Assembly: GCF_040024445.1 (NCBI RefSeq) | Contig: NZ_CP157276.1 | Coordinates: forward strand, 2,666,001 to 2,730,000 | DNA length: 64,000 nt | Reading direction: 5' to 3' | DNA from: Prescottella soli | GTDB taxonomy: Bacteria > Actinomycetota > Actinomycetes > Mycobacteriales > Mycobacteriaceae | In this document: positions 5,760 through 30,709 of the stretch, piece by piece | How the letters are laid out: every line of letters starts with the position of its first letter | Position numbering within the stretch: the first letter of the stretch is position 1 | Made by a program: the position numbers and the translations under genes | Notes under the pieces: generated by a model | What the model saw: the letters and a program-made list of their open reading frames with translations, nothing else | Told to the model about the DNA's origin: nothing | The model's database searches: none

Positions 5760-5933
5760 ATGATCTGGTTGCGCATCACCCCCGACAACCGGATCAGCGA
5801 GCGCCGGCACTGCGTGCGACGCCAACCCCACGAGCAGATAATGGCGATTAGCTGCGAGCGCTGGGTGACGGGTCACTGGTCATCCGCGCCGTACCATCTG
5901 GCGGCCTGTCCGTCGCGATACGCCAAGCTGTGA
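5760..5933 (+). CDS. Doubtful small reading frame
   Basis: 57 codons beginning ATG at 5760 (MIWLRITPDNRISERRHCVR...) and ending at 5933, where the TGA overlaps the GTG start of the next gene (GTGA). The overlap is the only support. An AGGAGGAGG stretch lies at 5727-5735, which is far upstream. The sequence has Cys/His residues but no recognised domain. It may be a degraded fragment. Confidence 0.25.
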   Translation: MIWLRITPDNRISERRHCVRRQPHEQIMAISCERWVTGHWSSAPYHLAACPSRYAKL

Positions 5934-6328
5934 CAACGCCGAAAGAACACACCATGCCCGACACCAACAATCACGACCCGTCCGTCGAGAACGCCGACAG
6001 ATCCTTCAACCTCATTCCCTTGGAGCAGGCTCCCGGTTTGGTTCTGGGGATGATCGCCCGCTTCGCTGAAGGTCTGCCAGAACCGATGGTCATCGGTGCG
6101 AACGATCAGCCGGTAGCCGCCTTGATCCCCATCGATGACCTCCTTCGGCTTCATGAATACGACCGTCGTGCTCTCGATTCCGAGGACTCGTTTTACGCCG
6201 AACTCGATCACCGGCTTCACCACGCGGACATCGAGCAGGCGGTGATAGACCTCAACGACGTCGCCCGGTCTCTCGGGCCGACCGGAGAACAGTGGGCCGA
6301 CAGACGTCCCGGCAGCGAACAAGACTGA
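5930..6328 (+). CDS. Phd/YefM-like antitoxin homologue, orphan
   Basis: 132 residues from GTG 5930, or 124 from the ATG at 5954. The middle part (about residues 48-78) reads PEPMVIGANDQPVAALIPID, which matches the beta-hairpin core of Phd/YefM antitoxins (usually ...VxITxxGxPVAVLVSxxDY). That fold binds DNA and neutralises RelE/Doc-like toxins. No toxin gene follows on the same strand; the next gene is convergent. It could be an orphan antitoxin or a stand-alone regulator. Confidence 0.5.
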   Translation: MTTPKEHTMPDTNNHDPSVENADRSFNLIPLEQAPGLVLGMIARFAEGLPEPMVIGANDQPVAALIPIDDLLRLHEYDRRALDSEDSFYAELDHRLHHADIEQAVIDLNDVARSLGPTGEQWADRRPGSEQD

Positions 6329-6499
6329 CGAGGTCGCCCGCTCCCGTATCGACCGAATTCCGTCGGCGCACAGCCCTGCTCGCCGCCCCGGCGCGGTCGA
6401 CGCGGACCACATGTCGTTGCCGTCGACGATCTACACCCGGTCAGCTTCTGCGGAACAGTTTCCCTATGAAAGGCTGTCCAACACGGTACGTCCGCAAGC

Positions 6500-6916
6500 T
6501 CACATCCCCTGCCGGGCGTGGTCGATCACGTTGTCGACCGCGATCTCGGTGAGCTGCCCCGCTTCGAGGTCCTCGAGCGGGCTGTTCCCGTCGAGCATGT
6601 CGGCCGCGGTCAGCCACCAGCTCGCGGCGCCGTAGGGGTCTGTGTCGACGTAGAGGCGCCGGTTGGCGTGCCGGACGACGTCGTGGATCTTGTGCCGGCA
6701 GGTGTCGAACTGGAAGACCGGGTACAGGTAGTTCGGGCGGGTGTCGACGGGCAGGCCGATCAGATCGCCCGCCGCGCGGCGCTTCTGGGCGACACTGGAG
6801 ATCGAGGCAGCGGTCGGTGCCAGAATCCGGGCGAGCTCCGTCGAGTCGACCACGACGAACGAGTCGAGGATCAACCTCCTGGCAATATCCAAGTCCGACT
6901 GCCGTGACGCGGCCAT
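6500..6916 (-). CDS. Xre/MbcA/ParS-type antitoxin-like protein (DUF2384-like C-terminus)
   Basis: 138 residues from ATG 6916 (MAASRQSDLDIAR...). The N-terminal half looks helix-turn-helix-like (SSVAQKRRAAGDLIGLPV). The C-terminal half has DPYGAASWWLTAADMLDG and a following helix, the pattern of the toxin-binding domain of MbcA/ParS antitoxins that partner RES-domain toxins. No RES toxin is adjacent, so it is an orphan. An upstream extension to 7180 is open but shows no coding character and overlaps a repeat, so the shorter start is preferred. Confidence 0.6.
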   Translation of the reverse strand: MAASRQSDLDIARRLILDSFVVVDSTELARILAPTAASISSVAQKRRAAGDLIGLPVDTRPNYLYPVFQFDTCRHKIHDVVRHANRRLYVDTDPYGAASWWLTAADMLDGNSPLEDLEAGQLTEIAVDNVIDHARQGM

Positions 6917-6988
6917 AGATGGGAGGCTACCTCGAACCGGACTTAGGACGACGCCGGTCTGGGGTCCCGTCGATGTAGGTTCCGGATC

Positions 6989-7035
6989 TACTTGTCCAAT
7001 CGACCTGAGACTTCCAAGATCTTCCACGACACTTG
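6989..7035. repeat. 47-bp direct repeat, copy 1 (partner at 7709-7755)
   Basis: Begins TACTTGTCC and ends TTCCACGACACTTG. It matches the second copy at 42 of 47 positions by eye, 720 bp apart. The two copies bracket the frameshifted secreted-protein gene, so they may mark a duplicated or mobilised segment. Confidence 0.75.
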
Positions 7036-7089
7036 TCCCCGAAATTCCGGGCGACGATGTCCATTTCCACGGCCCTAGCACGAGTCGCC

Positions 7090-7510
7090 ATGCTCGATTT
7101 CCTTTGCCGATAGTCGCCTGCGCGGCCTCAGTGGCCGGTTCGGTTCTGGCGCCGGTTGCCGTCGCCTCCGCAGCGGTCACCGTTCCGTTCCAGATCGACC
7201 CGGCGCCGTTTGGAAACCCGAACGGCAGCTTCGACTTCCCTCGGTCCGCTGCGTGGCCGTGGTCGGTGAACAGACTGGGACGGTGATGATCGCCAGCGGA
7301 AAGGAACGCCGGTGGAGATGCCTACTTCCGTCCGAAGTGCACTGGCTGAACCTGTCGACCGGCGCATACGGCTCCAGCCCAGATGTCGACCGGAATGTAC
7401 GGATACCCGGCAGCGATCCTGCCGAGCGGGACCGGGAAGGTTGTCCCGCCGTCGTAATCGCTGGCAGCACGCTCATCACACCGGGCGTCGCAGCGGTCTA
7501 CGTTCCGTAG
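7090..7510 (+). pseudogene. Frameshifted paralogue of the secreted protein at 18203-18619
   Basis: The DNA aligns along its length with the intact gene on the minus strand at 18203-18619. Shared stretches include the signal-peptide tail VAGSVLAP, the segment ASAAVTVPFQIDP and the C-terminal TPGVAxVYVP. Two single-base deletions relative to the intact copy break the frame: one near 7112 (an early TAG results) and one near 7241, after SFDFP. The copy also has an insertion after QIDP (APFGNPNG). It cannot make the full protein unless frames are rejoined. Confidence 0.8.
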
Positions 7511-7653
7511 TCGACGGACCCGCGGTCCGGGAAAGCGGCGCGGGTCTAGCCTGGTACGTGAATACGGCTGGAGTTCTAGGCTGGGGTGGCACTCAGTGCC
7601 CTACGTCTGTTGCCGAAACTCGACCGAATGGACATATAGGCTGGAATTATGAC

Positions 7654-7689
7654 AAGTGCGGGACATATTGGTCCGGAAACGCCATCTAG
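7654..7689. repeat. 36/37-bp imperfect direct repeat flanking the radical SAM/JmjC cassette
   Basis: Starts AAGTGCGGGACAT and ends CCATCTAG. A related copy lies at 11807-11843 (AAGTACGGGACAT...CCATCTAG), with roughly three quarters identity including one gap. The two copies lie just outside the two ends of the 7.9-11.4 kb cassette in the same orientation. Confidence 0.5.
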
Positions 7690-7708
7690 ATCTGGGACCT
7701 ACAGGACT

Positions 7709-7755
7709 TACTTGTCCGATCGTCCTGCGACTTTCAAGAACTTCCACGACACTTG
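7709..7755. repeat. 47-bp direct repeat, copy 2
   Basis: Second copy of the repeat at 6989-7035, differing at five positions. It lies about 190 bp upstream of the small peptide gene at 7948. Confidence 0.75.
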
Positions 7756-7947
7756 ATTCAGTTCAGCCAGTGGGGGAAGGACGCCGCGATCACCGCGAGC
7801 TCCAACAGATGGCTCGGGCCAGCACGCCCAATCCGCGAAATTGAGGTCGCAGGGAGGAAAATGGGATAGCATCGCACGGAGGTATGGTACGACCACACTA
7901 CAGACTGACATTGGCGGCGCCAAACCGGACGATTGAGGCGGGGCAGC

Positions 7948-8172
7948 ATGTCAAAACACGATCCTGATGAACCTTCCGAATCGCTGAAACATTCTTCAGG
8001 AGGCGGGAGGAGCAAACCCCACAGCGAGGGAGGATCGGGGGTCTCATCTCCTGATCAGGATGGGCTTCATTGCGTTCCTCCCTTTGAGACTGAGGCCGAG
8101 GCGCTAGGGCAAAACCTTCTTCCAACCACTGGGATATGGGTGTGGCCGGTTGGGATCGTTGCAGGAATTTAA
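7948..8172 (+). CDS. 74-residue peptide, candidate precursor or small surface peptide
   Basis: ATG 7948 is preceded by GAGGCGGGG. The first 40 residues are hydrophilic (Ser, Gly, Asp, His rich). The C-terminal third turns hydrophobic: ...ALGQNLLPTTGIWVWPVG, ending IVAGI at the stop. There is no signal peptide. The hydrophilic leader plus short hydrophobic tail, with an oxygenase gene 89 bases downstream on the same strand, fits a ribosomally made, post-translationally modified peptide precursor. The tail also contains LPTTG, a formal match to the sortase LPxTG motif, but the basic end and N-terminal signal needed for sorting are missing. The substrate role is inference. Confidence 0.5.
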   Translation: MSKHDPDEPSESLKHSSGGGRSKPHSEGGSGVSSPDQDGLHCVPPFETEAEALGQNLLPTTGIWVWPVGIVAGI

Positions 8173-8261
8173 TCGAATGGACTCTACTCGAGTCCTGATT
8201 CGATTTGCCCAACGGGCAACCATAACACTCCTCTCATTCCTGTCGAAATAAGGCGATACGC

Positions 8262-9299
8262 ATGGTGGACTCTTCTTCCGAAAGGCGCCTTCCCTGGAAT
8301 ATTCGCCGATGGGTCGCGAAATTGCTTGCGGAGGGCTATAGCGAGAACGCCGTTTGCCGCAGTCTCTCGAAGGCCGGTTACGAGGAACATTCCGGCAGGT
8401 CGGAAATTGCTGAGTTGGCTGCAAACCCAGCCTTCGGAGCTGCTGTTGATCTCGCAAGGAGTCGCGATAAGCTGGTTTTGTTGATGGACGCGTTAGCGCA
8501 GCAGCTACGGCAATCTGCAGCTGCGCACGCTGTGCCGGTCATGTGTCGGCCTGATCCGGTGGAGTTCTTTGACCGCTATTACTACGGCAATCGTCCTGTG
8601 ATTGTCCGAGGGCTGATGGATGAATGGTCAGCCCTCGGCAAGTGGACGCCGGAATGGCTGAAGGAGAGTTTCGGGAACGTTGCCGTCGAGGTCACGTCCC
8701 GCCGGGACACTGATCCGCATTTCGAGGAACATTTTGATCGCCACCGCACGAAGATGTCGCTGGGCGACTTCATTACCGCGACGTCCAGCAATTCGGGCAA
8801 CGATCTTTACCTGGTTTCGAAGAATAGAATATTAGACCAGCCCGAATTCGTTGACCTACTAGATGATTTCATTTCACCTCAAGGATTCCTGCGCTCCGAT
8901 GAACGCAACGCTCCCGGGCTGTGGCTGGGGCCGGCCGGCACGAAAACACCCCTGCATCACGATTCAACGAACATATTCTTCGCTCAGGTATTCGGGTCTA
9001 AGCGAATTAGACTGATACCGCCTTTTGAGATCGGTAACGTCTACAACGATCGGTCTTGCTACAGTGCGGTCGACATTGACTCGCCCGATCTAGCAAAATT
9101 CCCGAGATTCACTGATGTCTCCATTCTTGACGCGACAGTCAGCCCGGGAGACTTTCTGCTTCTTCCGGTGGGCTGGTGGCACACGGTGGAGTCGCTTTCG
9201 ACAAGTCTCTCGCTATCATTTCATAACTTCGCCGTTGAAGGCGACCCCGTGGTATGGCGGTGGCGAGAGTCGGAGACCAAACGTAGATCGCTATACTGA
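8262..9299 (+). CDS. JmjC/cupin-8-type Fe(II)/2-oxoglutarate hydroxylase
   Basis: 345 residues. The jelly-roll iron site is visible: His232-x-Asp234 in TPLHHDSTN and distal His307 in GWWHTVESLS, with the usual PGDFLLLPVGWWH run of cupin-like JmjC proteins. Such enzymes hydroxylate side chains of proteins or peptides. The first 90 residues form a helical extension (IRRWVAKLLAEGYSENAV...) of the kind that could bind a peptide leader. It lies 89 bases after the 74-residue peptide gene on the same strand and converges on the radical SAM gene, with 13 bases between their ends. GC content is clearly below the surrounding element, which suggests separate acquisition. The substrate is unknown; the small peptide or the Pro-rich repeat protein are candidates. 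Confidence 0.8.
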   Translation: MVDSSSERRLPWNIRRWVAKLLAEGYSENAVCRSLSKAGYEEHSGRSEIAELAANPAFGAAVDLARSRDKLVLLMDALAQQLRQSAAAHAVPVMCRPDPVEFFDRYYYGNRPVIVRGLMDEWSALGKWTPEWLKESFGNVAVEVTSRRDTDPHFEEHFDRHRTKMSLGDFITATSSNSGNDLYLVSKNRILDQPEFVDLLDDFISPQGFLRSDERNAPGLWLGPAGTKTPLHHDSTNIFFAQVFGSKRIRLIPPFEIGNVYNDRSCYSAVDIDSPDLAKFPRFTDVSILDATVSPGDFLLLPVGWWHTVESLSTSLSLSFHNFAVEGDPVVWRWRESETKRRSLY

Positions 9300-9312
9300 T
9301 CTCCGCGCATTT

Positions 9313-10398
9313 CTATGGTGCCGTCTCGCCAATTGGAATCTCTTCGAGAAATTCGGCGTTGGCAGCAGGCGGCTCGAATCGGGTGAGTAGAAACTCGCCA
9401 AGCAGTACGTCGGGGATCTTTTCCTGGTGGTGCTCCTGGATCACTGCTCGGACCCGATCGTCCTTGTATAAACGTAGACACGCCTGACACTTGTGTGCGT
9501 ACATGTTCTCCCACTCGATCTCCGGATCGATGTTGGCCGCCCACGCCAGAATTTTCTCTGGGCCTTCCAGTCGGATCCAACGCTTGAGGAAGTCATCAGC
9601 GGCTGTCAGGTCGGCCTCACGCAATGATGTCGACTCCACTCGCCCAACCTGTAGTTCTGGGACCGCACGCATGCCGATACCGCAGCAGGCGGCTATTCTT
9701 CCGTCTGCCTGCACGGTGGTCGTCGTCAAACAACTCGAACAGCCGGTCTTGAGCGCAACGTTGTTGCGATTTAGCAGATATCCGTCAGGATAGAAATTTC
9801 GGCGGTCGGGGCGTACGGGCATCCAAGGGCTCTCGATCACTTGCACATTTGCCGCTGGGTTTTTGTCCAGAGCCATCCGAAATTCACCGTCCTCCAGAAT
9901 GTCATCTTTGTGAATTACGGAGCCCTCGATTACCTCAATCATAACGCATAGCGATCGGAATCCAAGCTCCAAAGATGTTACCGCCGCGCGGATTACGGAA
10001 GAAACAGGAACGAAGCGCGCGTGCTGGTCACCGGTACTGAGGTTGAGCTCGTCAAGACCCGCCGAACGCAGGCGCCCCAAAATGTCGTAGGCGCCGGCCT
10101 CGGTCTCCGCCCACCATCCATTCGTCACAAGTCGTGTTCCCATACCCAACGAGTTGGCCTGGGCCACGCCTGACAATACGATATCGAGCGCAAGTGTCGC
10201 TTCGCCCCCAGTGAACACCACGCCCCTGTATCCAGCATCCGCTGCTTGCGCTATCAATCGTGTAACGGTATGCCCCTCTAGCGAAGAGTGCCCAGGCCCC
10301 GGGCTACTGAAGGTGCCGCAATTCTGGCAGGCAGCAGTGCACCGAAAGGTCGGCATAATAGACAGCACCTTCGGCTGGGATTCCGGTGTGAGGACCAT
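9313..10398 (-). CDS. Radical SAM enzyme with C-terminal auxiliary cysteine clusters
   Basis: 361 residues. The radical SAM cluster motif C-x3-C-x2-C is at Cys20, Cys24 and Cys27 (FRCTAACQNCG), with the SAM-binding GGE at 64-66. The C-terminal third has CxxC (220/223), CC (238/239) and CxxC (304/307). Six cysteines in this pattern suggest one or two auxiliary Fe-S clusters like SPASM/Twitch enzymes that modify peptides. ATG 10398 lies two bases after the stop of the upstream Pro-rich repeat gene, so the two are surely one operon. This points to the repeat protein as substrate or partner. The family inside the superfamily is not recognised. Confidence 0.8.
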   Translation of the reverse strand: MVLTPESQPKVLSIMPTFRCTAACQNCGTFSSPGPGHSSLEGHTVTRLIAQAADAGYRGVVFTGGEATLALDIVLSGVAQANSLGMGTRLVTNGWWAETEAGAYDILGRLRSAGLDELNLSTGDQHARFVPVSSVIRAAVTSLELGFRSLCVMIEVIEGSVIHKDDILEDGEFRMALDKNPAANVQVIESPWMPVRPDRRNFYPDGYLLNRNNVALKTGCSSCLTTTTVQADGRIAACCGIGMRAVPELQVGRVESTSLREADLTAADDFLKRWIRLEGPEKILAWAANIDPEIEWENMYAHKCQACLRLYKDDRVRAVIQEHHQEKIPDVLLGEFLLTRFEPPAANAEFLEEIPIGETAP

Positions 10399-10400
10399 GG

Positions 10401-11438
10401 CTAAAGACGACCTTTCATCGAGAGTTGGTTGAGCGCGGTTTGCACCTCGTCACCGCCTCCGCTGAGAACGCCCTCCTGCTTAAGATGCTCCGCCGAACGC
10501 GTCATTGCGGCATCGAGCACACCCGCCACCTGCTTGAGGTTGGTTCGCGTCAGTCCGAGCCAGTGCTCAATCTCCTCGACTCGGAGACCTTCTTCCGGTG
10601 GTGGGGGCGGCCCGGGTTCAGGCCCCGGTTCCGGTGGCGGGGGCGGCCCGGGTTCAGGCCCCGGTTCCGGTGGCGGGGGCGGCCCGGGTTCAGGCCCCGG
10701 TTCCGGTGGCGGGGGCGGCCCGGGTTCAGGCCCCGGTTCCGGTGGCGGGGGCGGCCCGGGTTCAGGCCCCGGTTCCGGTGGCGGGGGCGGCCCGGGTTCA
10801 GGCCCCGGTTCCGGTGGCGGGGGCGGCCCGGGTTCAGGCCCCGGTTCCGGTGGCGGGGGCGGCCCGGGTTCAGGCCCCCAGATGGCGTTGTGCTGGTGCA
10901 CCGCGAACTCGGTTTCGACGGCGATGAATAGGCCAACGTAGGCAACTACAAGGACCGGCACTGCGGCCACCACCGGTCCCGCTACGGCGGCGAGGGGACC
11001 AACCGGATCAATGCTTCCCTCATTGTCCACGACTGCTGTCTGCAACTCAGGGCCTCCCACCCGCACTAACGCGGCCGCGAAATCCCGTGCTACCTGACTG
11101 CGGTCCACTTGCAATAGGAATTCACGTTTTCGTTCAATTGGATTTCGGATGTCGTGGAGATGCTGAAATTGCTGAGCAAGTTGCGCACTGTACTCGTCGG
11201 CCCATTGTCGCATCCCGGGATCGGCGAGAAAACAGTAGAGCAGCTTATTTGCATTTGACAGCTTTGTACGGACAGTCGCGGGATCACCGCCGAATACTGA
11301 AGCCCAAACAACTCCAGTGGGGTCGCGCAGAAAAGACTCCCGAAGCGCCCGTGAAGAACTCATATCTTCGAAGAGAAGATTTACCCGCTCGTCGAGTTTG
11401 GGATAGTTGAGTATCAACTGGCTGCGCTGATTGGCCAT
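10401..11438 (-). CDS. Membrane-associated protein with eight PEPGPPPPPE-type repeats; possible radical SAM substrate
   Basis: 345 residues from ATG 11438, behind AAAGGGGA. Residues 1-140 are a charged helical domain containing RALRESFLRDPTGVVW, which resembles leader-type DPxxVL segments of modified peptides. A hydrophobic stretch (about 146-175) looks like one membrane helix. Residues 188-283 are eight copies of a 12-residue unit, GPEPGPPPPPEP. The last 62 residues are helical and end at ...MKGRL. The stop lies two bases from the radical SAM start. Proline-rich repeats are plausible targets for hydroxylation or cross-linking, or could span the cell wall. No family was recognised. An upstream in-frame start at 11528 has no ribosome-binding site. 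Confidence 0.65.
   Translation of the reverse strand: MANQRSQLILNYPKLDERVNLLFEDMSSSRALRESFLRDPTGVVWASVFGGDPATVRTKLSNANKLLYCFLADPGMRQWADEYSAQLAQQFQHLHDIRNPIERKREFLLQVDRSQVARDFAAALVRVGGPELQTAVVDNEGSIDPVGPLAAVAGPVVAAVPVLVVAYVGLFIAVETEFAVHQHNAIWGPEPGPPPPPEPGPEPGPPPPPEPGPEPGPPPPPEPGPEPGPPPPPEPGPEPGPPPPPEPGPEPGPPPPPEPGPEPGPPPPPEPGPEPGPPPPPEEGLRVEEIEHWLGLTRTNLKQVAGVLDAAMTRSAEHLKQEGVLSGGGDEVQTALNQLSMKGRL
10597..10878. repeat. 36-bp tandem repeat, 7.8 copies, inside a coding sequence
   Basis: Seven full units and one 30-base unit of GGTGGCGGGGGC-type sequence, in frame with the Pro-rich protein on the minus strand. The copies are identical apart from one base in the first unit (GGTGGT instead of GGTGGC). 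That indicates recent slippage expansion or ongoing homogenisation. Confidence 0.95.
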
Positions 11439-12229: not shown

Positions 12230-12340
12230 ACTGCACCGATTCCCGATCAGTTCCTCCCGGTATCACGGAGGACGGGAGGTCCATTGCTGGCCTCTGTTGG
12301 CCTGCCTTTCGGCAGGTCTGCCGGACCCCAACACCGTTCC
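12230..12340 (-). ncRNA. Candidate omega (reRNA) guide RNA at the 3' end of tnpB
   Basis: TnpB proteins use an RNA made from the 3' end of their own gene and the IS right end. Here that segment contains stable hairpins: CCTGCC-TTTC-GGCAGG at 12301-12316, and CCTCCCG (12253-12259) pairing with CGGGAGG (12273-12279). Exact ends and guide cannot be read by eye. Placement rests on the known biology of the family. Confidence 0.35.
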
Positions 12341-13842
12341 GGCCGTGACCGGCTTGGTGTTGGGGTGTCGCAGCGTTTAACGTCGGCCGTATCCACGGGC
12401 GACGGGGTGAGGGCGAGTGAACAGATGTTGCGGGCAGCGTTGAGATCACGGTCGAGGACCAGGCCGCACTGCTCGCAGCGATACACACGCTCGGACAGAC
12501 GCAGCGTGGCTCTTACTGCGCCACAGCCCGAGCAGGTCTTCGAAGTCGGCTCGAACCTGTCGACAATGACCAGGCATGCGCCGTACCACGACGTCTTGTA
12601 ATGAAGTTGTCGACGGATCTCCCCGAAAGCGGCGCGGCGGATCGACCGGTTCAGGCCGGCCTTGGAACGCCGACCGTTCGGCAGGAACCTGCCCGGATGG
12701 TCGGGGTCGGGTATGGGGTGCGGGGCGGCTGTCATCCCGGCCACCGCCAGATCTTCGATTCCAATCGCCTCGAAGCCGGTCGCGATCCGTTTCGTCACCT
12801 CATGCAAACGTCCCCGACGTCGAACCGCGTCGACATGCTGCAACCGCGCGATCCTCCGGGTGGTCTCCACCCATCCTGCCGAGGGGCCCTGCTCGTGGGT
12901 GGGGCCGCGCTGCCGGGCGGCGTGCCGTTGAAGTCGGCGCAGACGCCGCCAGAAGGCGGCAAATGGGTAGCCGGCGATCAGTTCATCGGGCGACAGCGCG
13001 ACCAGCGAATGCACTCCCACATCGACGCCGACCGCTCCGGCGGCCCGCTGCCGCCGGGTGGTCACCGGCGCCGGAATCAGCTCGGCGGGAATCTCGAGGA
13101 CGATACTGACCGTCCATCCGGTGGCGCGCCGGACGAATCGAGCAGATTTGGGGATAGCACCACGCTGGATCCAGCGACGCAGCCGACGGGTGTTCTCGTG
13201 TACCCGCAGCGAACCAAGGTTGGGGATACGAATCCGGTGCCCCTGGTCGATCACCTTCCACGGATCCTCGCCGCGGCTGGTGACGCTGAGGTTGAAGATC
13301 GCGAACGAGTCCTTCGAACGGTGCTTCTTCTTGAACCGTGGCCATCCGGAGGGACGGCCGTCCTTGCGTGGCTTACGCGGTGGCCGGTCTGGAGACCTGG
13401 CACCGTCCCCGTAGCGGACGATCGCGGTGTCGAGGTCGCGGAGCGCCGTGCTCACGACGAATCGGGAGACGCCGTGGTTCTCTGCATGCCACCAGTGGAA
13501 CCGGCTGTGCGGGTCGCAGGTGAGTTCGGTGAACCGACGCCCCAGCGAGGTCCTGTTGGGACGCCGACGCAAGTCCTGGGGCGCCTGAAGCAGCGACCCC
13601 CTACGCCAGTCCACATCGCCGAGCAGGGTCTGCGCCTCGCCCTCGGTACGGGTGACCGCGCGGGCACGTTCACGCAACCATGCATACCGCTGCCCATTCC
13701 ACGCATTGATAGCGGCCAGACCCCAGTTGTAGACCGCGCGAGAGGTGCCGGCAGACCGCTCGAGCAGCAGCTGCTGACGGTCGGTCAGTGCCGCCGCATC
13801 GAGGTGAAGCAGCACTGCGCGTGAACATGTCATGTCGGCCAT
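12247..13842 (-). CDS. tnpB: TnpB RNA-guided nuclease of an IS200/IS605-type element
   Basis: 531 residues. The RuvC-like active site looks complete: Asp in GVDVGVHSL (about 276), Glu in IGIEDLAV and Asp in LDRDLNAARNI. The zinc finger CSGC...CEQC lies between the last two. The N-terminal helix-rich domain begins with CSRAVLLHLDAAALTDRQ. No TnpA Y1 transposase gene is adjacent, so this is an IS1341-like lone tnpB that could move only with help in trans. It is longer than the usual 370-450 residues because of extended loops and a C-terminal tail of about 70 residues. It still looks intact and potentially active. Confidence 0.85.
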   Translation of the reverse strand: MADMTCSRAVLLHLDAAALTDRQQLLLERSAGTSRAVYNWGLAAINAWNGQRYAWLRERARAVTRTEGEAQTLLGDVDWRRGSLLQAPQDLRRRPNRTSLGRRFTELTCDPHSRFHWWHAENHGVSRFVVSTALRDLDTAIVRYGDGARSPDRPPRKPRKDGRPSGWPRFKKKHRSKDSFAIFNLSVTSRGEDPWKVIDQGHRIRIPNLGSLRVHENTRRLRRWIQRGAIPKSARFVRRATGWTVSIVLEIPAELIPAPVTTRRQRAAGAVGVDVGVHSLVALSPDELIAGYPFAAFWRRLRRLQRHAARQRGPTHEQGPSAGWVETTRRIARLQHVDAVRRRGRLHEVTKRIATGFEAIGIEDLAVAGMTAAPHPIPDPDHPGRFLPNGRRSKAGLNRSIRRAAFGEIRRQLHYKTSWYGACLVIVDRFEPTSKTCSGCGAVRATLRLSERVYRCEQCGLVLDRDLNAARNICSLALTPSPVDTADVKRCDTPTPSRSRPERCWGPADLPKGRPTEASNGPPVLRDTGRN

Positions 13843-18202: not shown

Positions 18203-18619
18203 CTACGGAACGTAGACGGTTGCGACGCCCGGTGTGACGAACGAGCTGCCGGTGTGTACGACGACGACAACAACCTGCCCGGTCCCGGTCGGCAGGACCG
18301 CTTCCGGGTATCCGTCCACGCCGCCCGACATCGGGGTGGAGCCGGCGACTCCGCTCGACAGGTTCAGCCAGAGCACTTCGGACAGTTGTAGGCACCCAGA
18401 TCGGCCTTCCCGTCTGCGTTCCTCCGGACCGGTGATCGTCACCGTCCCGGGCTGTTCGCCGACCACGGCCACGCAGCGGACCGCGGGAAAATCGAAGCTG
18501 CCGTACGGGTCGATCTGGAACGGAACGGTGACCGCGGCGGAGGCGGCGGCGGTCGGCGCCAGAACCGAACCGGCCACGATGGCCGCGCAGGCGACCGATC
18601 GGCGAACGAAATCGATCAT
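18203..18619 (-). CDS. Small secreted protein, unknown family
   Basis: 138 residues. A Sec signal peptide is clear: basic start MIDFVRRSV, hydrophobic core AIVAGSVLAP and a cleavage site ASA-AV near residue 29. The mature part of about 110 residues has two cysteines (in VRCVAVV and SGCLQL), probably one disulfide, and a Val-rich C-terminus ending TPGVATVYVP. This suggests a small beta-rich extracellular domain. Its start lies 4 bases after the stop of the 41-residue microprotein, and another microprotein follows, so it is part of a cluster. A broken paralogue lies at 7090-7510. Function unknown. Confidence 0.75.
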   Translation of the reverse strand: MIDFVRRSVACAAIVAGSVLAPTAAASAAVTVPFQIDPYGSFDFPAVRCVAVVGEQPGTVTITGPEERRREGRSGCLQLSEVLWLNLSSGVAGSTPMSGGVDGYPEAVLPTGTGQVVVVVVHTGSSFVTPGVATVYVP

Positions 18620-29300: not shown

Positions 29301-30542
29301 CTACCCCAGCAACTCCGCCAGCGCATCCACTTCCGACGCGTCGGTGTGGGCGTAGGTCCGGAGCACGAGCGTCCCGCCGTCTGCGTGGCCCAGCCACGCC
29401 GCAACCGCGGATGGTGTCGCTCCCGCGGCGATCAGCCGTGACGCCGCGGTGTGCCGAGCAGCGTGGAGCCTGCGGTGGGGCACCTGCGCGTACCGCAGCG
29501 CCTCCTTCCACCAGTCGTCCAGAGTCCGCGGTGCCACTGCTCGCCCGTCCCAGTGGGTAAGCACGTGGAGATCTCGTGCCCCGACCCATGCTTCACCGGC
29601 GCGCTTCTTGGCGATCCCCTGCCGTTCCCGCGTACCGCGCAGAACGTCCAGCACCAACGGCGGCAGTTTGAGTGAGCGCCGCGCGCGGGCGCTCTTGCCG
29701 TTCCTCTGATCGATGGTGCGGCCTGTCACGCGAACCCTGGTCCGCACGGCCACCGTGATGCGTCCTGAATCCAAATCAATTGCGCTCCAACGTAGCCCGG
29801 CCAGCTCACCGCGCCGCAGCCCAATCAGCGCCAATTGCACCATAGGCGCATGGACCACGGCCATGTACTGAGGCGACCGTGGCCCGCCGACCAGGGGCAG
29901 ATCCATCGCGGAATGCGTTTTCACCAACCGCGCAACCTCGTCCTCACCGAGTCGGTCGGACAAGTCCAGCGCGCCCTCGCATGCGTCAGCGTCGTCTTTC
30001 TTGCGTAGCGGCTTGATGTACTGGATTGGATTGTCGCTAAGCACCTTTCGCCGCTCCAGATCCTTCCAGACGGCCTTGGTGCGCGCGAGCATCGGATTGA
30101 TCGAGGTTCGCTTCCACTTCCGCCCGCCTGGCCCAGTACCAGCGGCCAGGTCCTGCACGAGCTGCTCCACCTCGTTGTCGCCGATCGTCCGCACATCGCG
30201 ACCGTCGAACCGGTCGACGACTGGCGCCAGCGCCGCCGCGTAGGCCGCGAGCGTGGTCGGGTTGATCCGCTGCGCCGCGAGCCAGCGCTCGACCGCCTGA
30301 GCCACCGTGACGACCCCGGCCTCCTCGGCCGCAACCTGCGCGGCCTCCTCCTTGAGCTTCTCCTGCAACTCGTCGAGGAACTCCCCCGCCGCCTTCGAGG
30401 TCTCGAACCTCCTGCGCACCTGACGTCTCACGCCGTCCGGTCCGGCCACCTGCGCCCGGACCTGGTACCGGATGTCCCCGCTCGGCAGCTCGACTTTCTC
30501 AACGCCGTTTCTCAACGCCACGCCCGCGATCCTAGCGATCAC
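29301..30542 (-). CDS. int: Tyrosine integrase (tRNA-Ser site)
   Basis: 413 residues. The N-terminal arm-binding domain (GDIRYQVRAQVAGPDGVRRQ), the core-binding domain (about 75-190) and the catalytic domain are in order. Catalytic residues are visible: Arg in IGLRRGELAGL, Lys in the KSARARRSLKLP hairpin, HxxR in LHAARHTAAS, His in AWLGHADG and Tyr in RTYAHTD. It starts 78 bases beyond the 3' end of tRNA-Ser and reads away from it, the standard position for an integrase of an element inserted in a tRNA 3' end. It would catalyse integration and, with a directionality factor, excision. Confidence 0.9.
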   Translation of the reverse strand: MIARIAGVALRNGVEKVELPSGDIRYQVRAQVAGPDGVRRQVRRRFETSKAAGEFLDELQEKLKEEAAQVAAEEAGVVTVAQAVERWLAAQRINPTTLAAYAAALAPVVDRFDGRDVRTIGDNEVEQLVQDLAAGTGPGGRKWKRTSINPMLARTKAVWKDLERRKVLSDNPIQYIKPLRKKDDADACEGALDLSDRLGEDEVARLVKTHSAMDLPLVGGPRSPQYMAVVHAPMVQLALIGLRRGELAGLRWSAIDLDSGRITVAVRTRVRVTGRTIDQRNGKSARARRSLKLPPLVLDVLRGTRERQGIAKKRAGEAWVGARDLHVLTHWDGRAVAPRTLDDWWKEALRYAQVPHRRLHAARHTAASRLIAAGATPSAVAAWLGHADGGTLVLRTYAHTDASEVDALAELLG

Positions 30543-30616: not shown

Positions 30617-30619
30617 ACC

Positions 30620-30642
30620 TGGCGGAAGCGGAGGGATTTGAA
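30620..30642. other. Probable attachment-site core (attR side) in the tRNA 3' end
   Basis: The integrase lies directly beyond this tRNA 3' end, and such enzymes use the T-arm/acceptor segment as crossover core. No second copy of TGGCGGAAGCGGAGGG was found elsewhere in the window, so the other boundary should be outside it. Confidence 0.4.
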
Positions 30643-30709
30643 CCCCCGGTGGGTTTAACGCCACGCTCGCTTTCAAGGCGAGTGCATTCGGCCGCTCTGC
30701 CACGCTTCC
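30620..30709 (-). tRNA. tRNA-Ser (anticodon UGA)
   Basis: Read on the minus strand: acceptor GGAAGCG (5' end at 30709) pairs with CGCTTCC before G and an encoded CCA (30622-30620). The anticodon loop CTTGAAA gives UGA, a long variable arm is present as expected for tRNA-Ser, and the T-arm contains GGTTCAAATCC. Intact, so integration has kept the gene functional. Confidence 0.95.

Follow-up and report, generated by a model that had tools for sequence, protein, structure and literature searches.

Direct epimerization of ribosomal peptides is attributed to two types of enzyme, PoyD-like and EpeE-like, which a passage in PMC8326336 describes as having no significant homology. The systems closest to the one considered here are the epipeptide system (EpeX/EpeE, formerly YydF/YydG), whose precursor is a short peptide, and the proteusins (polytheonamide, aeronamide), whose large precursors are served by PoyD epimerases. 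We analyzed a stretch of 64,000 nucleotides from Prescottella soli (contig NZ_CP157276.1, positions 2,666,001 to 2,730,000; here called the window), in which a gene for a radical S-adenosylmethionine (SAM) enzyme adjoins a gene for a proline-rich repeat protein, its partner. As far as sequence comparison can tell, these two genes most likely encode an epimerase and its precursor, and the family to which they belong stands between the epipeptides and the proteusins. The locus contains the following features (coordinates within the window).

7948-8172, plus strand: 74-residue open reading frame (ORF), coding status unsupported
8262-9299, plus strand: JMJD5-like oxygenase of the JmjC/cupin-8 type, its gene probably independent
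9313-10398, minus strand: EpeE-like radical SAM enzyme, 361 residues, assigned from sequence, fold, and cysteine set
10401-11438, minus strand: precursor-like partner (repeat protein), 345 residues, 2 bases upstream of the radical SAM gene
11004-11438, minus strand: N-terminal leader-like domain of the partner, residues 1-145, with the motif FLRDPTGVV at residue 36
10875-11003, minus strand: hydrophobic segment of the partner, residues 146-188, proposed modified core
10593-10874, minus strand: eight PEPGPPPPPE repeats of the partner, residues 189-282, peculiar to this copy and probably serving as a linker
10404-10592, minus strand: C-terminal follower-like segment of the partner, residues 283-345, of which residues 291-325 weakly match S. 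canus

With the epipeptide system the pair shares the radical SAM fold, the cysteine set including the hydrogen donor, and a candidate substrate gene adjoining that of the enzyme. It differs in that the partner is 345 residues long rather than a short peptide, EpeE residue D210 is not kept, and no peptidase or ABC transporter gene was seen beside the pair. Large precursors are a likeness to proteusins, but the leaders of the partners fall below the cutoffs of NHLP models.

The radical SAM enzyme and its relatives

The enzyme exceeds the cutoff of PF04055 (31.1 bits against 29.5) and carries the cluster motif CxxxCxxC (C20, C24, and C27) followed by six C-terminal cysteines (C220, C223, C238, C239, C304, and C307), an arrangement that the original prediction had described correctly; five of the six are conserved, the exception being C223. 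Across an alignment of 21 radical SAM sequences, seven motif and auxiliary cysteines are kept in every member and C239, which aligns with the hydrogen donor C223 of EpeE, in 20. By analogy with EpeE, C220, C238, C239, C304, and C307 would constitute the auxiliary-cluster and hydrogen-donor set. The closest PDB match is EpeE, an epimerase, and the fold assigned is that of EpeE, which scores well above the remaining folds listed; SuiB and other cross-linking enzymes rank lower. The SPASM domain (PF13186) scores 12.1 bits, below its Pfam cutoff of 21.5, and a PoyD-named model was absent among the 25 of 28 matches listed, from a library whose inclusion of such a model was unchecked.

Searches for the enzyme in 396 genomes of the phylum of the window and in 101 relatives returned only the window's own copy, and a profile search of 394 genomes of its class returned five matches, again including that copy. 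Three matches were found in 299 genomes from the phylum of a Rhodospirillales metagenome-assembled genome (MAG) and four in 247 genomes from that of a Dysgonamonadaceae MAG, each count including the MAG itself. A search of genome contigs gave three loci, a plasmid search 10 records, and a phage search none. Altogether, 18 full-length members outside the window were recovered at 1e-50 or better, a count that sets aside fragments and EpeE-type or weak matches; eight are rows of the search profile itself, and half come from plasmids, a collection that was searched deliberately. Their named hosts are Actinomycetota, Deinococcota, Pseudomonadota, Bacteroidota, Bacillota, and a haloarchaeon. A tree of 21 sequences groups the window with S. 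canus and three genomes of its class (support 100/100), and this group of five is nested in a clade of 14 (support 98/99). One further genome of the window's class (L021) encodes an EpeE-type radical SAM enzyme; next to it come genes for a membrane protein resembling M50 (below cutoff) and for an ABC ATPase, and the whole looks like an epipeptide locus distinct from the window family.

The partner and its variable middle

In 17 of the 18 relatives, a partner-like gene of ~168 to 368 codons with a comparable layout adjoins the radical SAM gene up- or downstream. The Rhizobium partner lies ~3 kb upstream, separated from the radical SAM gene by genes for a C-methyltransferase and a transposase and by a 126-residue ORF. 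The N-terminal domain of the window partner alone matches the partners of S. canus and three genomes of the same class (5e-19 to 6e-9). When a profile of these five partners was searched against the 1904 ORFs of the fetched loci, matches below 1e-3 came from Thermus (6.6e-8), Rhodospirillales (1.2e-5), L030 (6e-4), and Rhizobium (7e-4), each being the partner-like gene of its own locus. With a two-sequence profile, Thermus was still found at 2.9e-5, while Rhodospirillales, L030, and Rhizobium dropped to 0.02 to 0.08 and were still ranked next. Homology of the partner is thus supported at sequence level for 8 of the 18 relatives. The view that the enzyme modifies peptides and that the repeat protein is its likely substrate is supported by the recurrence of such pairs, and the segment once read as leader-like belongs to a domain that matches partner genes of related enzymes. 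Above-cutoff matches of the window partner to NHLP or Nif11 leader models were not found; the S. canus and Rhizobium partners match TIGR04509, "NHLP-related RiPP peptide," weakly and below cutoff (18.8 and 21.0 bits against 34), in keeping with a function as leader.

The middle of the partner is highly variable across relatives. That of the window contains a 36-bp tandem repeat (7.9 copies, 99% identity) encoding exactly eight PEPGPPPPPE units, the number originally reported. It was then suggested that these repeats may be the part modified, and both their position within the variable region, as expected of a core, and the near identity of their copies, which suggests recent expansion, would suit that role. 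However, none of the other 19 partners examined is proline-rich (0.8 to 6.7% proline against 21% in the window partner), and the closest relative, S. canus, matches both flanks (32% over 131 residues at 3e-17 on the N-terminal side; 34% over 35 residues at 7e-4, or 0.002 in a second comparison, on the C-terminal side) without having the repeats. We therefore regard the repeats as a very unlikely core. No partner other than S. canus matched the C-terminal segment. In the Asn-rich partners of L039 and L038, the C-terminal part is DUF5969 (PF19394; 8.9e-8 and 2.8e-23), which may be a follower region.

Strongly hydrophobic middles (Kyte-Doolittle of at least 1.6 over 19 residues) are found in 13 of 20 partners, and in the window copy modification probably falls on the hydrophobic stretch that precedes the repeats. 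We consider it reasonably probable that the radical SAM enzyme is a diverged member of the EpeE-type peptide epimerases and acts on the middle of the neighboring partner, with the repeats as a spacer peculiar to this copy. Such an enzyme would recognize its partner through the N-terminal leader-like domain, and perhaps through the C-terminal end as well, and would abstract alpha-hydrogens in the middle segment, after which Cys239 would return a hydrogen to the opposite face to yield D-residues. Since the middle of the window partner is hydrophobic, the product would probably be membrane-active.

Neighboring genes at the locus and its relatives

The partners of Thermus, Klebsiella, Rhizobium, and Collinsella carry asparagine mainly at even spacings, and their residue alternation exceeds that of shuffled sequences (0 of 300 for each). 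Methyltransferases at the same four loci have their best PDB matches among 7rc2-7rc6 (E values of 5e-15, 2.9e-14, 7.7e-18, and 2e-6, respectively; partial length; labeled "Methyltransferase family protein"), which we take to be AerE of aeronamide. Asparagine-alternating middles accompanied by an AerE-like methyltransferase recall the proteusins, as does a C-methyltransferase (TIGR03975) above cutoff in L030 and L038, with a truncated, below-cutoff match at the contig end in L003. Passages in PMC9505594 and PMC11285071 report, respectively, that PoyE methylates D-configured asparagine and that AerE methylates one asparagine configuration only; by analogy, the AerE-like enzymes are suggestive of epimerization. 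In the Rhizobium leguminosarum locus (L038, 2289-5228), a C-methyltransferase gene is seemingly shortened and adjoins a transposase gene.

Other neighbors bear on whether the product leaves the cell. SdpI-family proteins (PF13630) flank the Thermus and Klebsiella pairs, a DUF3784 protein lies beside the Halocatena pair, and a DUF1648 protein lies beside that of Collinsella; for all of these, we take the SDP toxin with its SdpI immunity protein to be the apt comparison. Inspection of the genes next to the window pair showed nothing of this kind. L004, L005, L031, and the fragment locus L033 have PH-domain proteins (PF10882) alongside (Eleftheria being below cutoff), and ABC transporters occur at the Lactococcus and Enterococcus loci, as does a peptidase-ABC exporter at the Klebsiella locus. 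The last (L036, Klebsiella sp. plasmid pmk4) holds an EpeE-like radical SAM gene, an AerE-like methyltransferase, an annotated lysine-acyltransferase, an HlyD/peptidase-ABC exporter, and SdpI. Transporters and SdpI-type or PH-domain neighbors fit toxin-like peptides with immunity. Alternatively, the partner may be a modified protein that is retained in the cell, a reading compatible with epimerization. The L018 to L020 partners have no strongly hydrophobic segment, and no exporter or protease turned up next to the pairs of the window, L019, and L020; for the window pair, this covers protease, membrane peptidase, and ABC genes, by inspection of the ORFs and family searches of part of them. The neighbors of the S. 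canus enzyme are mostly hypothetical proteins. Since the SdpI, PH-domain, and ABC neighbors of related loci, one of the transporters having a peptidase domain, fit a secreted, toxin-like product, and an ABC-transporter ATPase gene lies 0.7 kb from the radical SAM gene of L018 (on the opposite strand), we think retention in the cell unlikely.

Several observations weigh against the epimerase reading. The enzyme scores 57.7 bits against TIGR04078 (YydG/EpeE), far below the cutoff of 300. At the position of EpeE D210, the clade of 14 that includes the window has T, S, N, or F (T in the window itself), so the active site differs from that of EpeE; among the 21 aligned sequences only Collinsella has D, and the EpeE-type L021 has E. 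Partnership in 10 of the 18 relatives was judged by eye from position, size, and layout. Strongly hydrophobic middles are not a general feature: three of the five partners in the window's own clade lack one, and residue alternation in the hydrophobic segment of the window partner is not significant (equaled or exceeded in 233 of 300 shuffles). For the window, L019, and L020 pairs, inspection of the surroundings revealed neither an exporter nor an immunity gene. The PDB matches of the methyltransferases span only ~130 to 195 residues, and other methyltransferases match too. Furthermore, PoyE acts independently of the epimerase according to a passage in one review (PMC11285071), so a PoyE/AerE-like methyltransferase does not prove epimerization.

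The distance from the YydG family, the loss of D210 in the clade, and the presence of cross-linkers such as SuiB lower in the fold lists could instead indicate that the enzyme places another modification, such as a C-C or C-O cross-link or a dehydrogenation, on the same partner. Against this, EpeE outscores the remaining folds in the list by a wide margin, its cysteine set is retained, and AerE-like methyltransferases co-occur at four loci. Cysteine is absent from 7 of 20 partners, which excludes thioethers for those seven; with an epimerase as the closest enzyme, cross-linking through cysteine finds no support. We judge a modification other than epimerization to be improbable.

Finally, the four genes, grouped in the original prediction as a candidate peptide-modification system, could form one hydroxylation and radical SAM peptide system with the 74-residue peptide as precursor. 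The four features were all found at the positions and on the strands given, and the intervals of 13 bases (between the stop codons of the JmjC and radical SAM genes) and 2 bases (between the genes of the repeat protein and the radical SAM enzyme) were measured as reported. Similarly low GC content among neighbors would agree with a single system, and it holds for the short ORF, the JmjC gene, and the radical SAM gene (54 to 57%). The repeat-protein gene reaches 64% because of its repeats (56% and 60% outside them), and the NACHT-type gene of the carrier element has 60%. The JmjC/cupin protein exceeds the cutoffs of PF13621 (136.8 bits against 27.4) and PF08007 (38 against 22), stays below that of PF02373 (JmjC; 16.7 against 24), and has JMJD5 as its best PDB match. 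JmjC-type enzymes of this cupin-like family, PbsQ and BpmG, occur in clusters for ribosomally synthesized and post-translationally modified peptides (RiPPs), one adding +16 Da to a peptide, according to part of PMC12257519. The best plasmid relative of the JmjC gene also lies in a RiPP-like cluster of S. meliloti. That cluster (L011, Sinorhizobium meliloti pAK76, 5896-11317) comprises a JmjC-like gene, one or more 2-oxoglutarate oxygenases, a large radical SAM gene, a flavoprotein, and a 72-residue ORF ending in Cys.

Nevertheless, the JmjC gene was absent at 1e-2 from 22 stretches fetched around radical SAM matches (mostly 3 to 10 kb per side, with one side of 0.2 kb in L003 and 0.4 kb in L034) and at 1e-10 from 11 radical SAM-positive genomes or plasmid records (one EpeE-type), and around another relative of the JmjC gene (G735) no RiPP context was obvious by eye. 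Unlike biphenomycin-type RiPP clusters, the window has no arginase- or MNIO-like gene among the neighbors scanned, and its JmjC gene is not linked to the radical SAM family. The JmjC and radical SAM genes converge and thus form separate units. Around homologues of the enzyme, therefore, a partner recurs as had been supposed, but repeats and JmjC genes do not, and the JmjC gene is probably independent of the pair, though it may have a role of its own. The 74-residue ORF has an upstream sequence that resembles a ribosome site. However, its frame is third of six by codon score, and its GC content at third codon positions is 47%, against 57 to 63% in the JmjC gene, the radical SAM gene, and the N-terminal part of the partner. 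It has no plasmid homologue and no credible homologue elsewhere, a single marginal match (29%, E = 0.0017) being found in 1 of 60 other relatives. The ORF is not supported as a gene, and we regard the four-gene system as extremely unlikely.

The carrier element and the wider family

The pair is carried by a tRNA-Ser integrative element of about 37.6 kb, bounded by a 60-bp perfect repeat whose second copy sits 6.9 kb to the left of the window.

29301-30542, minus strand: integrase gene (PF00589) of the element, adjoining a tRNA
30618-30677, no strand: attachment repeat within tRNA-Ser, with 60 identical bases at C1:2659074-2659133

Its cargo also includes a NACHT-type gene, a resolvase, and a TnpB-like gene. 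The last (12247-13842, minus strand) encodes a TnpB/Cas12-like nuclease with Cas12u4 as its best PADLOC match (9.9e-146), and it also exceeds the NCBIfam cutoff for RNA-guided TnpB. Beside the cassette lies a broken copy of a secreted-type protein (7113-7510, plus strand) that resembles an intact ORF in another part of the element, at 18203-18619 on the minus strand (47%, 2e-18), and direct repeats of 52 bp occur at 6984 and 7704.

We suggest, tentatively and with rather less than even confidence, that the window belongs to an undescribed, widespread family in which the epimerases are of the EpeE type, not the PoyD type, and their substrates are large precursors that have a leader of the folded type. 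In some of its members (Thermus, Klebsiella, Rhizobium, and Collinsella), the products might be pore peptides with alternating Asn, N-methylation, and alternating D- and L-residues. This would be a second way, independent of the first, of making polytheonamide-like channels, and it would be guarded in part by immunity proteins of the SdpI type. Such a family would bring EpeE-like enzymes together with large precursors and, in certain members, with polytheonamide-like cores, and its short cassettes are testable in E. coli. If this is true, epimerized peptides would extend to several phyla and a haloarchaeon, and one could ask whether SdpI-type proteins protect against pore peptides containing D-residues.

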